This document shows, piece after piece, positions 20,353-26,537 of a stretch of DNA of 30,390 nucleotides. The translations under genes and the position numbers were made by a program. The DNA is from a virus, in IMG/VR virus record IMGVR_UViG_3300028883_000107, positions 1 through 30,390 of that record. One strand, given 5' to 3'. Each line of letters begins with the position of its first letter. Within the stretch, counting starts at the first letter, position 1. The notes beneath the pieces were generated by a model. That model had not been told where the DNA came from. It saw only the letters and a list, made by a program, of their open reading frames with translations, and did no database searches.

Positions 20353-22299
20353 ATGACGTTGAAGAAGGTCCGCGGCGGCGATAGTCTCAAGACGGGACAG
20401 ATAAATCAATTCGTCGACGAGTTCAACCGGATAGCGGCGTCGGGGACCGGCCGCCGGCTTGATCGGAATCTTCTTCCCGGCAATCCGATATGGGCGGTCA
20501 ATAATACTGGCGTTGACTTGTATATGGGGGAAGTCGCGGCGATCGACTCGAGTCCCTATGTCGGCAACGCCGCTGGGATCCTTACCGATAATCTCGTCTT
20601 GACGCTTCGCGAGACAGGCGAAGGCGACGAAGATAATTGGGTCGTCGCGGCGAATTGGATCCCGGCCGGGGAAGCCGGATGGGTCTATTCGGCCGGCGTC
20701 GCTCTCGCTCGCCTCGAGCCCGAAGGCTCGGGATCCCCGCCCGGCGATTACGTTCAAGCCGTCCCGGGCGAGAAGTATCTCGAGCGATCGGACCGCGGGG
20801 CCGGGCTTCTCGTCGTCGATCTCGGTCAAGTATGCTCGGCCGGCGTCGGGGAGTGGGGACTCGTCCGCTTCGCCGGCGCCAGCAATACGGGCGAAGGCGC
20901 CGGCCCGAGCCCGGGGACGCCGACGACATACATTCAAAAGGAAGGCGACGGGGATCCCGGATCGGGATCTCCCTATATGCGGGCGGACGCTCTCTTCGAG
21001 CTCCGCCGGCGAGTCGGGTCCGGGCCCGTCTCGGGAACGGAGCACGAATCCGGGCTCGAGATGGCGGAAGAAGAGGATCGGATCGGCGTCCTTTGGGAGA
21101 AGGACTCCGGCTATATCCTGGACGTTGCCGGGACGACGGCGAGCGTCGGCGACCGGGGGACGGTCGCCCGGGGCAATCATCAACACGCTTTCGACGGATC
21201 CGCTTTCGCGGGGACTGGCGTCTCCTGGAGTGCCGGGCAATTCCACGTTACGCCGGCGCCGAGCCCGGGGACGCCGACAACGTACATACAAAAGGAAGGC
21301 GACGGGAATCCCGGATCGGGAGCTCCCTATATGCGAGCGGACGCTCTCTTCGAGCTCCGGCTTCGAGCCGGCTCCGGGCCGGCTTCCGGAACCGAAGACG
21401 AATCCGGCCTCGAGATGGCGGAGGAAGAAGATAAGCTCGGCGTCCTTTGGGAAAAGGACTCGGGCTATATCCTGGACGTCAACGGGACGACGGCGAGCGT
21501 CGGGGATCGGGGGACGGTCGCCAGGGGAAATCATCGACACGCTTTCGACGGTTCGGCCTTCGCCGGGACGGGGATCTCTTGGAGCGGCGGACAGTTTAAT
21601 GTCTCAGTCCCGACTCCGCCGTCGAAATATACCTCGATCCCGGAAGCCGTCGATTACGATACGGTCGGCGCGGCCGGGTCGTCCGACGACTATTCTCCCG
21701 GCGATCATAAACATCCGTTCGACGGGAGCAATCTCGCCGGCGCCGGGCTCAACTGGTATTCGGGCGGGGGCGTCGGACAGTTCCGAAACGATTACAGTCC
21801 GGCGACGAATCCTCCGCCGAATATAGCGGCTTCGAGTTCCCTTGGGATTCAAGCGGCCAAGTTTGCTCGAGAAGATCATACTCACGGAATTGACGTTACG
21901 GCCGGCGGCGGCCTTGAGATATCCGGCGGTTATCTGCAAATGGAAACGCCGACGGACGGGGATCTTTGGTATGGCGGCGGCGGATATTGGGGACGGCTCG
22001 GCATCGGCACGGCCGGGGATGTGTTGACGGTAGTTTCGGGGGCGCCGGCCTGGAACCGAATCGGAACATCAGACCTAACCTTCGACAATGGGGTCGATTT
22101 GGTTTTCGGAACGGGGGCGGGGACGAATCTCGGGAAGGCCGCTAATCAAAAGTCGGCCTTCCACGGCGCGACGCCGGTCGTCCAGGCGAGCCATATTTCC
22201 GATCCGAGCGGCGGCACAACGCAAGACGCCGAAGCCCGGACGGCGATCAACGCGATTCTAGTCGCTCTCGAGAATAAGGGGATCTTGGCAAGCGCATAG
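20353..22299 (+). CDS. Tail fibre with HxH repeats
   Basis: This is a 648-residue protein. Residues 1-180 are a non-repetitive attachment part (SLKTGQINQFVDEFNRIAAS). Residues 186-420 are two near-identical 118-residue units, each ending VARGNHQHAFDGSAFAGTG or close to it. Two more HxH sites follow (GDHKHPFDGSNLAGAG and EDHTHGIDVTAGGG). HxH motifs in T4 fibre and needle proteins bind iron along the trimer axis, so a metal-stabilised trimeric fibre is likely. The C-terminus (SGGTTQDAEARTAINAILVA) is a common fibre ending. It would bind the host surface. Confidence 0.82.
   Translation: MTLKKVRGGDSLKTGQINQFVDEFNRIAASGTGRRLDRNLLPGNPIWAVNNTGVDLYMGEVAAIDSSPYVGNAAGILTDNLVLTLRETGEGDEDNWVVAANWIPAGEAGWVYSAGVALARLEPEGSGSPPGDYVQAVPGEKYLERSDRGAGLLVVDLGQVCSAGVGEWGLVRFAGASNTGEGAGPSPGTPTTYIQKEGDGDPGSGSPYMRADALFELRRRVGSGPVSGTEHESGLEMAEEEDRIGVLWEKDSGYILDVAGTTASVGDRGTVARGNHQHAFDGSAFAGTGVSWSAGQFHVTPAPSPGTPTTYIQKEGDGNPGSGAPYMRADALFELRLRAGSGPASGTEDESGLEMAEEEDKLGVLWEKDSGYILDVNGTTASVGDRGTVARGNHRHAFDGSAFAGTGISWSGGQFNVSVPTPPSKYTSIPEAVDYDTVGAAGSSDDYSPGDHKHPFDGSNLAGAGLNWYSGGGVGQFRNDYSPATNPPPNIAASSSLGIQAAKFAREDHTHGIDVTAGGGLEISGGYLQMETPTDGDLWYGGGGYWGRLGIGTAGDVLTVVSGAPAWNRIGTSDLTFDNGVDLVFGTGAGTNLGKAANQKSAFHGATPVVQASHISDPSGGTTQDAEARTAINAILVALENKGILASA
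20907..21260 (+). repeat. 354-bp tandem repeat in fibre gene, copy 1
   Basis: This unit begins GAGCCCGGGGACGCCGAC, encodes a 118-residue module and is followed directly by copy 2. The period of 354 nt is in frame. Confidence 0.85.
21261..21606 (+). repeat. 354-bp tandem repeat in fibre gene, copy 2
   Basis: This copy matches 20907-21260 closely, with scattered substitutions, some of which change the protein (QH versus RH, RRRV versus RLRA, EHE versus EDE). It diverges after GGCGGACAGTTTAATG. Confidence 0.82.
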
Positions 22300-22372: not shown

Positions 22373-22738
22373 ATGAGTCTCTCGAACAAGCTCGATCAAG
22401 CTCGGAATAGCTTTCTTCACAATTGGGAGCGAAGCCGGAAGGTCGAAGCCAACAATCTTCAAGGCTACTTCGACGAGCTCTCGGAGATCCTCAAAGAAGT
22501 TCGCGAGAAGTCCGCGGAAGCCGAGAGGATCATCGAGGCACGGAAGACGCTCGACCGGCATCTCGCCGAGACGGCGCTCGCTCTCGAGAATGCGAAGTCG
22601 CGGATCCTCGAGCTCGAGGCCGCGAATATCAAGCTCCAGGGGATCGCCGGCGTCCGCGAACATATCGAGCGGGAAATCGCCGTGAAGAAGGCGGAGCTCG
22701 ACGCTCTCGAGGGGCAACTCGTCAACAATCCGGAGTGA
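22373..22738 (+). CDS. Coiled-coil protein after the tail fibre
   Basis: This is a 121-residue protein with SD AAGGAAGGGAAAAGG before the ATG at 22373, preferred to the in-frame ATG at 22337, which lies in a small hairpin (22330-22348). Nearly the whole chain is a charged coiled coil (residues 15-115, for example ELSEILKEVREKSAEAERII and RILELEAANIKLQGI). There is no signal or membrane segment. It could be a fibre chaperone or a structural rod; no family was recognised. Its stop codon TGA is the first of four TGA triplets spaced exactly 21 nt apart in the same frame. Confidence 0.75.
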   Translation: MSLSNKLDQARNSFLHNWERSRKVEANNLQGYFDELSEILKEVREKSAEAERIIEARKTLDRHLAETALALENAKSRILELEAANIKLQGIAGVREHIEREIAVKKAELDALEGQLVNNPE

Positions 22739-22821
22739 ACGCTCGTCGGCTTTCAGTGAACGGAGCCGGGCTTCGCGTGAATAAAGGCGGCCCGGGCGTG
22801 AACAATGATCCCGATCAGTAA
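22735..22821 (+). repeat. Four 21-nt units beginning GTGAAY, upstream of the radical SAM gene
   Basis: GTGAAC, GTGAAC, GTGAAT and GTGAAC occur at 22735, 22756, 22777 and 22798, exactly 21 nt apart. In one frame this reads VN-x5 four times (VNARRLS, VNGAGLR, VNKGGPG, VNNDPDQ) and then TAA. In the frame of the upstream gene it gives TGA every seven codons. The units differ outside the first bases. It could be a short GTG-started peptide of up to 28 residues, a remnant of a longer C-terminus of the upstream gene, or a nucleic-acid binding array. GTG is otherwise rare here. The last unit overlaps the next gene's ATG. Confidence 0.5.
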
Positions 22822-24880
22822 ACAAAAGATCTTGCAGATCGAAGTCACGAACGCTTGTCCTCATCGTTGCTCGAATTGTACGCGATTCTCGGGGCATCAT
22901 CGGAAGCCCTTCTTTATGGATCTCGAGACGGTCGAGCGGGCTCTCGATTCCGTCGCCGGCTTTCCCGGGATGGTCGGGATCATGGGGGGCGAGCCGACGA
23001 TTCATCCCGACTTCGAGAGGATCGCCGAGCTTGCCGCAAGCCGGCGGCGTCCCCGGCGGATCCCGCGGGCCCGGCTCGAACCGATAGCGGACTTCACGCA
23101 ATACCGAAGCCGATATCTCTCGAGGATCCCGGGCGTTCCCCTGGGCTTGTGGACAAGTCTCGGGGAGGGCTATTATCGGCATTTCGAAACGATTCAAGAC
23201 GTCTTCGCTTATCAGTGCATTAACACGCACGACAATCCGGGAGAACATCAAGCGATGCTGGTCGCGAGCTCGGAGCTCCCGATCCCCGCCGAAGAGAGGA
23301 AGCGGCTCATCGATCAATGTTGGGTCAATCGGTTATGGAGTGCCTCGATCACGCCGAAGGGGGCCTTCTTTTGCGAAGTCGCCGCGGCTCTCGATATGCT
23401 CTTCGACGGTCCGGGCGGATGGGAGATCTCTCCGGACTGGTGGCGGCGGCCGCCGGAATCCTGGGGCGATCAAAGGCAATGGTGCGAGCTTTGCGGGGCC
23501 GCGATGGCCGTTCCCAGGCGGCCGGCCTGGGATGGGATCGACGACGTCTCTCCGGAGAATCTCCGCCGCTTGAAGGACGTCGGCTCGCCGAAGATCAAGG
23601 CGGGGAAGATTCGGATCTTCGACGTCGCCGGATACGATCCGGCGCAATATGCGGACAAGCCGTCGGCCGAATGGTATCTTCCCCAGGGAGACAACGCGAA
23701 GCGTATCGGGACGGATCGCTCGCTCTTCCCCCGGAAGATCGAAGGTCTTCTCGTATGCGTCGGATATGCGGACTTCCTTCGCCGGACGCTTCCCGCGAAT
23801 GTGCCGCTCTTCGATCGCTTCGTCGTCGTTACGGCTTCGGAAGATTCCGATACGATCAAAGTCGCGCAAGACGCCGGCGCCGAAGTCGTCGTCTCCGACT
23901 CGTACAAAGAGCATGGCGCGGCCTTCAACAAAGGACGAATGATCAACGCCGGAGCTCGGGTCCTGGACTTCGACGATTGGGTTTTGATAGCGGATGCGGA
24001 TATCTACTTCCCGCCGGACTTTCGAAGGGCGCTTGACCGGATGATCCTCAATCCCGGGTGTCTCCATTACGCGACGCGATTCTCTCCGCCTTACGAGAGC
24101 CGGATCCCCTGGCTCGATCGATACGCCGAAGATCGCTCCCTCGTCCGAGAGCTTCGGCTCGTCGATCCGAGCTCCAATCAAAAGCCCTGGGGATATTGCC
24201 AATTATTCAACGTCCGGGCGAAGGCTCTTCGGGATCGCGGCCGGGATCTCTATTCCGAGAGATTCGCGTCCGCCGGAGGTGTCGATTATCATTTCAATTC
24301 CCTATGGCGGCCCGATCGGAAGATCCTTCTCCGGGGGCCGGCCTTCCGGCTCGTTCATATTCCGCACGGCTCCCTGGGCGTCAATTGGAATGGCCGAAGC
24401 TCGACGCCGCTTGATCCCGGATACGTTCCCGTCAAGACTCGGGGCTCCGGCTCCGGATGGCGCAATATCGGATGGATCAACCCGAGCGGTTTTCATCGGG
24501 CGGGCGCGATTCCCCGCCGCGGATTCCTTCGCTTGATCCGCTATGATACGTCCGACTTCGTTATCGTTCCCTATATGCCGGGGCGCCGGCCGGGCTCGAA
24601 TTGGATCCGCGGCCGCTTCGAATACGGGGCCCATCATGTCGGGATAGCCGTCCCGGCCTTCGAGGTCCCCGTCGAGCCTTCGAGTCGCGGTCGGATAATC
24701 ATCTATCGTCGGCGCGGCCGGGAGTTCTCCGGCTTCGGCATGGGTCATGTTATGTACGAAGACAATCGTCAAGGTTACGTTTGGGCCGGGGAAGAGATTT
24801 CCGAAACGGACTTCGACGTCGCTTGGAAGCAACGGCTAGACGAAGAGGATCTTTCTCATCTCGTCGAGGGGGCTCTATGA
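22805..24880 (+). CDS. Radical SAM enzyme fused to a GT-A glycosyltransferase
   Basis: This is a 691-residue protein. Residues 8-80 hold the radical SAM cluster motif C18-x3-C22-x2-C25 (ACPHRCSNCTRF) and GGEPT (61-65). Further cysteines C172, C190, C227 and C230 could bind an auxiliary iron-sulphur cluster, as in twitch/SPASM proteins. Residues 313-500 are a GT-A-type glycosyltransferase, with FVVVTASEDSDT, AAFNKGRMINAGA and the metal/nucleotide-sugar motif DAD (397-399) in VLIADADIYFPP. The last 150 residues are beta-rich and unassigned. It would modify a substrate by radical chemistry and attach a sugar; the substrate is unknown. The SD is weak, so translation may depend on coupling. The next gene overlaps as ATGA. 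Confidence 0.82.
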   Translation: MIPISKQKILQIEVTNACPHRCSNCTRFSGHHRKPFFMDLETVERALDSVAGFPGMVGIMGGEPTIHPDFERIAELAASRRRPRRIPRARLEPIADFTQYRSRYLSRIPGVPLGLWTSLGEGYYRHFETIQDVFAYQCINTHDNPGEHQAMLVASSELPIPAEERKRLIDQCWVNRLWSASITPKGAFFCEVAAALDMLFDGPGGWEISPDWWRRPPESWGDQRQWCELCGAAMAVPRRPAWDGIDDVSPENLRRLKDVGSPKIKAGKIRIFDVAGYDPAQYADKPSAEWYLPQGDNAKRIGTDRSLFPRKIEGLLVCVGYADFLRRTLPANVPLFDRFVVVTASEDSDTIKVAQDAGAEVVVSDSYKEHGAAFNKGRMINAGARVLDFDDWVLIADADIYFPPDFRRALDRMILNPGCLHYATRFSPPYESRIPWLDRYAEDRSLVRELRLVDPSSNQKPWGYCQLFNVRAKALRDRGRDLYSERFASAGGVDYHFNSLWRPDRKILLRGPAFRLVHIPHGSLGVNWNGRSSTPLDPGYVPVKTRGSGSGWRNIGWINPSGFHRAGAIPRRGFLRLIRYDTSDFVIVPYMPGRRPGSNWIRGRFEYGAHHVGIAVPAFEVPVEPSSRGRIIIYRRRGREFSGFGMGHVMYEDNRQGYVWAGEEISETDFDVAWKQRLDEEDLSHLVEGAL

Positions 24881-25536
24881 ATTGTCCGCTTTGCCTTTGG
24901 GATGAATGGGAAACCTTCCCGGGGAAACACGTTTCCCGGAGATATGTCGCTTGCCAGCATTGCGGGAAGGACGTCGTCCGCCTCGATCCCTTGATCTCTT
25001 TCGAGGAATCTCTCGGGATCTATGGGAAGAGTTACTTCGAAGAGATGCAAGGGACGATGGATCCCGGCCGGGCCGCGGACTTCGCCGATTACGGGCTTCT
25101 CGACTTCGAGAGCTTCGTCGAGTTCGGTCCGGGCGGGGATCAAGTCTTGAAGTGGCTCCGCGGCTTCGGGAAATACGTCGAAGGCGTCGACGTCAATCCG
25201 GCGACGATCGAGCGTCTCCGTTCCCAGGGAATCCCGGCCCATATGACGCCGCTCGAGCTCGACCGGGATCTCTTCGACGTCGCTCTTTCGTATCATTATC
25301 TCGAGCATATACGAAATCCGAGGCTCGAGCTCCGCTATCAAGCGGCGATCGCGAAGCGGATCTTCCTTCATGTTCCCGTCGGCCTGGACGAGCTCGGGAA
25401 TCGGGATCACAATTGGCTTATCTCCGCCGAGGCTCTCGCGAAGATCGCGGAGAGATTCGGAACAATCCTTCGGAGCGATATCCGGATCTATCCGGCCGGC
25501 TCGGCTCTTCAACTCTTGATCGAGGTCCGGCGTTGA
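24877..25536 (+). CDS. SAM-dependent methyltransferase with N-terminal zinc ribbon
   Basis: This is a 219-residue protein. Two knuckles, CPLC (3-6) and CQHC (26-29), make an N-terminal zinc ribbon. Residues 79-190 follow the class I methyltransferase order: motif I VEFGPGGD (81-88), an acidic residue ending strand 2 in VEGVDVNP, then LFDVALSYHYLEHI as motif IV and post-motif. The layout resembles sugar or small-molecule methyltransferases of the Methyltransf_13/23 groups that carry a zinc-binding N-terminus. ATGA and TTGA overlaps on either side couple it to the two glycosyltransferase genes, suggesting one pathway. The acceptor is unknown. Confidence 0.8.
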   Translation: MNCPLCLWDEWETFPGKHVSRRYVACQHCGKDVVRLDPLISFEESLGIYGKSYFEEMQGTMDPGRAADFADYGLLDFESFVEFGPGGDQVLKWLRGFGKYVEGVDVNPATIERLRSQGIPAHMTPLELDRDLFDVALSYHYLEHIRNPRLELRYQAAIAKRIFLHVPVGLDELGNRDHNWLISAEALAKIAERFGTILRSDIRIYPAGSALQLLIEVRR

Positions 25537-26348
25537 TCTCCGTCGTCGCTTGTCATTATCGCTTGCCGGAATACCGGCTCCGGCAATTCCTGGAATGGAA
25601 TCGGAAGCTTTTCGAGGTCTTCGGCGTCCGGACGATCATTGTCTCCGACGTTGATCGCTCCGGCTTGCCGGCCTGGGCCCGGCTCGTCGTCTATCCCGGG
25701 AAGCTCGAGATCTATTCGCCGTCCCGGGTCAGTAACTACGGGATCCGGATCGCCGGCGCGGGAATCATCTGCAAGACGGATATCGATTGCGTCTTCTCCC
25801 GATCGGCGCTCGAGGAAGTCGCCGGCGTCCGGGAAGGCCTGGGCGTCTCGCTCCCGTATCTCATGGCGATGAGCTATGACGAGCGGCCGAAGGCGATCAA
25901 GTGGGAATCGACGAAGGGGACGCTCGCTCTCGTCTTCGAAGATTGGGATCGGATCTCCGGCTATGACGAGCGACAAGCCGGATACGGGCTCGAAGACGGC
26001 GACGGCTATTGTCGGGCGATGAGGATCGCGAGAGTCCGCCGTCCGCAAGTCCCCTTTTGGCATATCGCGCACGATTCCGAGCGGGGAGCTTGTCCCCAGG
26101 CGAATCAGAATCGACGCTCCGATCACTGGCACCGAGCCGACGGCTTTTGTCCGGTCCGCCACAGGGAAAACCGGGCGGCCCGGCGGTCGGGCTTATGGTC
26201 TTCCCCTTCCTGGGGTCTTCCCGTCGACCGGCTCGGAGCCGGCGACAAGGGGCCCGGGGGCCGCGATCGACTCTCCCCCCTAGATCCGGTCCCCGGAGGC
26301 CCTTCCCGCCGGGATCCCGTTTCGGCGGCCCCGCCGGCAAGAGCATAG
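25533..26348 (+). CDS. Second GT-A type glycosyltransferase, TTG start
   Basis: This is a 271-residue protein. The TTG at 25533 overlaps the methyltransferase stop as TTGA, and ISVVACHYRLPEYRLRQFL at the very N-terminus is a normal GT-A first strand, so no residues are missing. The DxD motif is D83-I84-D85 in CKTDIDCVFS. GYDERQAGYGLEDGDGY is the usual acceptor-side ED motif region. The sequence up to about residue 210 is typical; the last 60 residues (AARRSGLWSSPSWG onwards) are Gly/Pro/Arg-rich and look like translated intergenic DNA. It probably adds a sugar to the same product as the upstream fusion enzyme. Confidence 0.78.
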   Translation: MISVVACHYRLPEYRLRQFLEWNRKLFEVFGVRTIIVSDVDRSGLPAWARLVVYPGKLEIYSPSRVSNYGIRIAGAGIICKTDIDCVFSRSALEEVAGVREGLGVSLPYLMAMSYDERPKAIKWESTKGTLALVFEDWDRISGYDERQAGYGLEDGDGYCRAMRIARVRRPQVPFWHIAHDSERGACPQANQNRRSDHWHRADGFCPVRHRENRAARRSGLWSSPSWGLPVDRLGAGDKGPGGRDRLSPLDPVPGGPSRRDPVSAAPPARA

Positions 26349-26508: not shown

Positions 26509-26537
26509 GGGGGCCCGGGGATCTCCCCCGGGCCCCC
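26509..26537. terminator. Bidirectional GC-rich terminator hairpin
   Basis: GGGGGCCCGGGG (26509-26520) pairs with CCCCGGGCCCCC (26526-26537) over 12 bp, with loop ATCTC. It lies between convergent transcription units, where it can stop both. No T-run is present on either side. Confidence 0.65.

Follow-up and report, generated by a model that had tools for sequence, protein, structure and literature searches.

A radical SAM-glycosyltransferase cassette among the late genes of a phage record: a candidate pathway for virion glycans

The cassette and its window

The virus record IMGVR_UViG_3300028883_000107, whose 30,390 bases were analysed as a whole and are called the window, is a phage record with a terminase, a lambda-type portal, an S49 head protease, a scaffold-like protein, a major head protein, a tape measure and a fibre, all encoded on the + strand. 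Three overlapping genes at 22805-26348, located 3' of the fibre-like and coiled-coil genes, form a cassette in which a radical S-adenosylmethionine (SAM) domain fused to a glycosyltransferase (GT) domain (P0001) is followed by a methyltransferase (P0002) and a second GT (P0003). The transferase domain of P0001 is named GT1 and P0003 is also named GT2. Open reading frame (ORF) calls returned the positions, the ATGA and TTGA overlaps and the order after the fibre and coiled-coil genes that a preliminary description, made from the sequence alone, had given. The features of the cassette are as follows:

22805..24880, + strand: P0001, radical SAM-glycosyltransferase fusion, 691 amino acids (aa), ATG start (ORF, Pfam, model, fold search)
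22805..23623, + strand: radical SAM domain with a predicted twitch-type auxiliary cluster, C18/C22/C25 and C172/C190/C227/C230 (Cys conservation, SpeY fold match)
23732..24364, + strand: GT1, GT-A glycosyltransferase domain, residues 310-520, DAD at 397-399 (fold search, motif, conservation)
24374..24877, + strand: C-terminal region of P0001, residues 524-691 (similar in loci L005/L007; low-confidence model)
24877..25536, + strand: P0002, zinc-ribbon class I methyltransferase, 219 aa, ATG start, ATGA overlap with P0001 (ORF, Pfam)
25533..26348, + strand: P0003, second GT-A-type glycosyltransferase, 271 aa, TTG start, TTGA overlap with P0002 (ORF, motifs, profile)

The radical SAM domain of P0001

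The iron-sulphur radical SAM domain announced by the preliminary description is present, with C18-x3-C22-x2-C25 and GGEPT (61-65) both lying within the first ~273 residues of P0001 and residues 12-81 scoring above the Pfam Radical_SAM (PF04055) cut-off (37.4 versus 29.5 bits). Seven cysteines (C18, C22, C25, C172, C190, C227 and C230) are invariant between the window and the diverged relatives L002, L003 and L004. An AlphaFold2 model built from 74 sequences was confident over residues 1-520, and SpeY, a twitch radical SAM dehydrogenase, occupied Foldseek ranks 1-4 for this model; the match covered residues 2-299, with a VIA-align Z of 16.1-16.4 over 238-242 residues (Z 16.4 over 238 residues of model 5-299) and a root mean square deviation of 3.4. 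The radical SAM profile also reached SpeY at an E-value of 0.0018 and BtrN at 0.05-0.06. The hidden Markov model (HMM) alignment with BtrN spans just the first two auxiliary cysteines, both of which align with BtrN cysteines. On the model, the N-terminal half of P0001 is a radical SAM enzyme of the twitch-dehydrogenase fold, with predicted catalysis. Structure prediction of the two halves of the fusion, which had been proposed as a check, thus returned a SpeY-like fold at the N-terminus and a GT-A fold at residues 310-520.

The transferases and the methyltransferase

Residues ~310-520 of P0001 match many GT-A structures with a VIA-align Z of 15-16.7, and GT1 has an intact DxD (DAD 397-399) together with conserved D494 and H518. 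By sequence, GT1 remains under the Pfam gathering cut-off (14.3 versus 27.5 for Glyco_tranf_2_4) and it is therefore called GT-A-like and placed in no Pfam family, its support coming from the fold, the DAD and the D494/H518 pair; a search with the GT1 profile found no solved structure by sequence. Residues 310-520 are, in the model, a GT-A fold with an intact DxD, and transferase activity is predicted. The fold search thus agrees with the GT-A domain with DAD that had been described in the fusion, though Pfam does not.

P0002 passes both Pfam Methyltransf_23 and Methyltransf_11, and L005/L006 and L074 have relatives of P0002 next to the fusion. P0003 carries the motifs TDIDC, GYGxEDGD and HxxH (H-x2-H), and the zinc-ribbon class I methyltransferase followed by a DxD glycosyltransferase was seen as described. 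P0003 falls marginally below the Glyco_transf_7C cut-off (22.3 versus 23.0), while the homologous domain scores above it in L005 (34.7) and L007 (31.9), and the P0003 profile reaches beta-1,4-galactosyltransferase at an E-value of 0.001. GT-A structures also match P0003 with Z 10-12; this is supportive only, as the model is poor (predicted local distance difference test score of 47.6, three sequences). As a single query P0003 found no relative in viral contigs, and its profile found only the L005 and L007 groups. Of the HMM searches suggested for each domain, those for the radical SAM domain and the methyltransferase passed Pfam, whereas GT1 and P0003 stayed below their cut-offs and GT1 was rescued by the fold search.

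Conservation of P0003 ends at about residue 228 (nucleotide ~26216), so the ~40 low-complexity residues encoded at 26216-26348 may not be real protein and may represent read-through or a frameshift. The three genes proposed for 22805-26348 are thus present, with a doubt on the very end of the last one.

Coupling of the cassette genes in other phages

The scan for relatives yielded 67 viral and 77 bacterial or archaeal loci. The radical SAM family comprises a long form, with ~25 extra residues and a C-terminal domain, and a short form of ~270-330 aa. Its gene tree requires eight changes between virus and cellular records, so the gene moved several times between viruses and cells. Phage-type fusions of radical SAM and GT1 were found in the window, L002, L005/L006, L007/L008, L047 and L074, and the DxD is kept in 8/8 of them. 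Recurrence in the independent records L002, L005-L008, L047 and L074 argues that the fusion is more than chance.

A link between the parts comes from L005/L006 and L007/L008, where the radical SAM domain, GT1 and a GT2 homologous to P0003 are joined in a single chain of 976-993 aa (independent E-value of the P0003 domain, 2e-29); these triple fusions belong to two other phage lineages. Elsewhere, GT1 is a gene of its own, one to five genes from the radical SAM gene of the family (L023, L026, L039, L051-L054, L056, L057). The parts of the cassette are thus fused, split or rearranged and yet remain together. Similarly, the methyltransferase gene is adjacent to the fusion or one gene away in L002, L005/L006, L007/L008, L047 and L074.

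Neighbourhoods were counted over 44 non-redundant phage loci, within four genes. A GT was present in 31/44, a methyltransferase in 23/44 and both in 20/44, and 47/80 gene junctions overlapped. Within this distance, 78 of the 327 neighbours were genes of glycan type, compared to 13 of the 401 neighbours farther away (odds ratio 9.3); the p-value of 1e-17 is optimistic, since genes that share an operon do not count as independent. Pfam assigned 24 Methyltransf_24, 10 Glycos_transf_2 and 5 Epimerase domains among 148 neighbours, as well as coat and terminase families; cassettes of the family have terminase, portal, scaffold, coat or tail genes around them. One large phage clade shows the order GT (cluster c4), methyltransferase or epimerase, then radical SAM, with 4-base overlaps.

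From these arrangements, it is well supported that the radical SAM domain, the GTs and the methyltransferase act in one pathway. The earlier proposal that the activities act on one product is upheld in this form, GT1 and GT2 each being fused elsewhere to the same radical SAM domain and GT1 also occurring separately in the operon.

No close relative was found by tblastn among 50,697 deposited phage records, where Campylobacter phages gave generic radical SAM similarity over 24% of the query, and none was found in plasmids by the same method. The suggested survey of gene order thus showed a coupling that recurs in uncultured phages and was not found in the deposited ones. Likewise, the pairing of a radical SAM and a sugar transferase in one chain, earlier qualified as unusual, is so for cultured phages, where none was found, but it is met repeatedly in uncultured phages as well as bacteria, the GT-like domain of the latter mostly being devoid of DxD.

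Several other observations were made in these loci. Cluster c4 (L010-L020, L031-L040, L046, L050) is a conserved family of DxD proteins of 225-276 aa, usually encoded directly upstream of the methyltransferase or epimerase and radical SAM genes; the one member scanned (L035) had no Pfam or PHROG match, and judging from its sequences the cluster is probably a new GT family. The contig of L074 (DYNY01000007.1), binned as Candidatus Elulimicrobium, is phage-like, partly as judged by eye, with a terminase, a portal, a GT-like gene, the fusion, a zinc-ribbon methyltransferase and scaffold- and coat-like genes. Two viral-labelled contigs (L009:2756-3790 and L030:4169-5266) carry NeuB-like and N-acetyl-sugar-amidotransferase-like genes, identified by eye, next to the radical SAM gene, which recalls nonulosonic acid pathways.

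The bacterial branch and flagellin

The C-terminal domains of the bacterial fusions (L069-L122) align weakly with GT1 around W...LNPG. A DxD occurs at the exact position in 1/45 alignable bacterial fusions (L078); the possibility that all bacterial members are active radical SAM-GT enzymes was rejected on this count. Probably, the bacterial GT-like domain has degenerated from a transferase and has been retained for binding.

In three Selenomonadaceae metagenome-assembled genomes (L073:135-4852, L075:87-5152, L088:6114-11149), the radical SAM gene lies between fliQ and fliR, in the order fliO-fliP-fliQ-[gene]-fliR-flhB. In Desulfopila, it is found 14-19 kb from two flagellin genes of a 6.3-Mb chromosome. 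Flagellin is encoded in 36/38 carrier genomes. Base rates were taken from three groups, each of which counts the carrier itself: 125/149 for the phylum of Sporofaciens, 3/39 for Kiritimatiellota and 15/40 for the class to which a Gastranaerophilales carrier belongs. The presence of flagellin had been considered as a general proof, which is weakened by the base rate of 84% in one control phylum. Part of the bacterial branch probably serves flagellin.

Surroundings of the cassette

The late genes next to the cassette and the end of the + strand genes present the following features:

20353..22299, + strand: tail-fibre-like gene, 648 aa (ORF; module of ~300 bp duplicated; HxH motifs repeated)
22373..22738, + strand: coiled-coil protein, 121 aa from ATG (ORF; weak matches to coiled-coil families only)
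26509..26537, no strand assigned: 13-bp G+C-rich hairpin (pattern match only; boundary of + and - genes)

The fibre-like protein had no PHROG match, so its label is based on the HxH motifs and on its place behind the tape measure; it is a possible substrate of the cassette. A 300-nt module is present in tandem duplicate within its gene, at 20905-21558 (88% identity, spacing 354). The hairpin is a putative end of the late transcript.

Proposed pathway and rival explanations

Starting from the domains, folds, motifs, gene order and recurrent fusion directly observed, we infer an order of steps, a chemistry and an acceptor. The cassette would be a cytoplasmic glycan-building pathway, co-expressed with the late virion genes. 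GT1 would set a sugar on the acceptor, and the radical SAM domain, built like SpeY and BtrN, would remove a hydrogen at a C-H of a sugar, with transfer of an electron to the auxiliary 4Fe-4S cluster of the domain; the sugar would thereby be oxidised (to a keto form) or epimerised. P0002 may then methylate the product, which GT2 (P0003) may extend or cap. The acceptor would be a virion protein, i.e., the fibre, the coiled-coil or a head protein, in a role comparable to that of flagellin. Flagellin is glycosylated on the protein, in the cytoplasm, and a virion protein offers a similar situation. Judged on sequences and models, this whole pathway with a virion protein as acceptor stands at about even chances.

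Several observations weigh against it. In the podovirus-type loci L003, L024, L025, L027, L041, L049 and L055, a short radical SAM gene stands alone between scaffold and coat genes, without GT or methyltransferase nearby. The link to flagellin is weak within Bacillota, given the base rate of 84%, and one Kiritimatiellota genome has the short form without flagellin, which is thus not tied to it. Other bacterial relatives lie in O-antigen- or capsule-type loci with epimerases and UDP-sugar dehydrogenases, which makes a surface polysaccharide a possible acceptor.

The latter point leads to the main rival explanation, namely that the cassette alters the lipopolysaccharide O-antigen or the capsule during infection or lysogeny and blocks superinfection. 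The polysaccharide loci of the bacterial relatives contain epimerases and RmlC-, NeuB- and UDP-glucose dehydrogenase-type genes, and uncultured pelagimyophages bear GTs and radical SAM cassettes among the tail-fibre genes of their host-recognition cluster, for which modification of the O-chain by GTs was proposed (PMC7029224). However, a membrane protein, a flippase and a lipid-carrier transferase are all missing from the cassette. No membrane span was found in its three proteins (maximal 19-residue Kyte-Doolittle hydropathy of 1.2), and hydropathy gave no membrane flippase or membrane-anchored transferase of the kind used in GtrABC-type serotype conversion. Moreover, a pattern scan revealed no promoter or terminator above chance between the fibre and the cassette, which closes the late operon instead of forming an independent moron. 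Modification of the host surface is thus a serious contender, and rather unlikely; between the fibre protein and the host surface molecule named in the preliminary description, a virion protein is favoured.

A different target within the virion would be an amino-acid side chain of the fibre, modified by the radical SAM enzyme as in ribosomally synthesised and post-translationally modified peptides, the GTs then acting on the modified residue. Residues 7-80 weakly match several peptide-maturase radical SAM models, and a structural protein and a coiled coil are encoded just upstream. These matches cover only the generic iron-sulphur core, whereas across its whole length the domain matches the fold of a dehydrogenase from aminocyclitol antibiotic biosynthesis, and a Pfam-type scan gave no leader-peptide-binding domain among the family matches; we consider this scheme improbable. 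A glycan is the better guess for the product, because SpeY is the nearest fold to the radical SAM domain and the surrounding genes encode GTs, methyltransferases and nucleotide-sugar epimerases. Between the glycan and the amino-acid modification left open in the preliminary description, the former is thus favoured. Phage GTs glycosylate DNA and some base-hypermodification pathways use radical SAM enzymes, so the cassette could also decorate modified bases of the phage genome. DNA glucosylation is among the subjects cited in PMC12619734. Against such a role, Tet/JBP was found in 0/47 related phage records, which are fragments (control genomes gave no match either), thymidylate synthase in only 1/47 of these fragments, and the bacterial relatives are tied to surface glycans and flagella, not to DNA. 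DNA hypermodification thus appears very improbable, even more so than the side-chain scheme.

Beyond the pathway acting on a virion protein, a wider statement can be made tentatively, with chances somewhat short of even. A widespread phage system, so far met in uncultured phages only, would put a radical-SAM-tailored, methylated glycan on its own virion proteins by means of a flagellin-glycosylation module that bacteria and phages have passed to one another, and the phage enzymes would keep an active transferase lost in most bacterial copies. To our knowledge, radical chemistry of this kind is so far known for antibiotics and cofactors and not for virus particles. If the statement is true, phages make sugars that need radical chemistry, and such glycans could alter virion stability, recognition of the host or recognition by the immune system. 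The enzymes, which would combine oxidation and transfer in one polypeptide, would serve glycan chemistry as compact tools, and a radical SAM family of many flagellated bacteria would gain a testable function.

Comparison with known systems

Radical SAM cassettes next to phage tail fibres (PMC7029224) and virion glycosylation in mycobacteriophages (Freeman 2023, as cited in PMC12619734) are already known. In our literature search, no article described a radical SAM-GT fusion of phages, a radical SAM-GT-GT2 triple fusion, radical SAM in flagellin glycosylation islands, or a flagellar link of the family. The host-recognition cluster of pelagimyophages is likened to the cassette by its description, which names radical SAM proteins but gives no domain, fusion or mechanism (PMC7029224). 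Mycobacteriophage virions bear glycans on capsid and tail-tube subunits, made by phage-encoded GTs according to work cited in PMC12619734; phage-encoded GTs are common to both systems, but the part of that article available to us describes no radical SAM enzyme for mycobacteriophages.

Among GT-A enzymes, the cassette shares the fold, the DxD and the later Asp/His with family-GT2-like members (chondroitin polymerase K4CP, TarS, WrtF) and with GT7/GT27-like ones (beta-1,4-galactosyltransferase, GalNAc-T2), and P0003 shows E-D-x-D and H-x2-H as in Glyco_transf_7C. GT1 differs from these known enzymes by its scores below the Pfam cut-offs and by a profile without a solved relative by sequence. 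With SpeY and BtrN, which belong to aminoglycoside/aminocyclitol biosynthesis, P0001 shares the fold of the whole radical SAM domain (SpeY) and the CX3CX2C motif; of its four putative auxiliary cysteines, the first two align with BtrN cysteines. The identity to these enzymes amounts to 13-17%, and, unlike them, P0001 is fused to a GT-A domain and encoded in a phage late operon instead of an antibiotic cluster.

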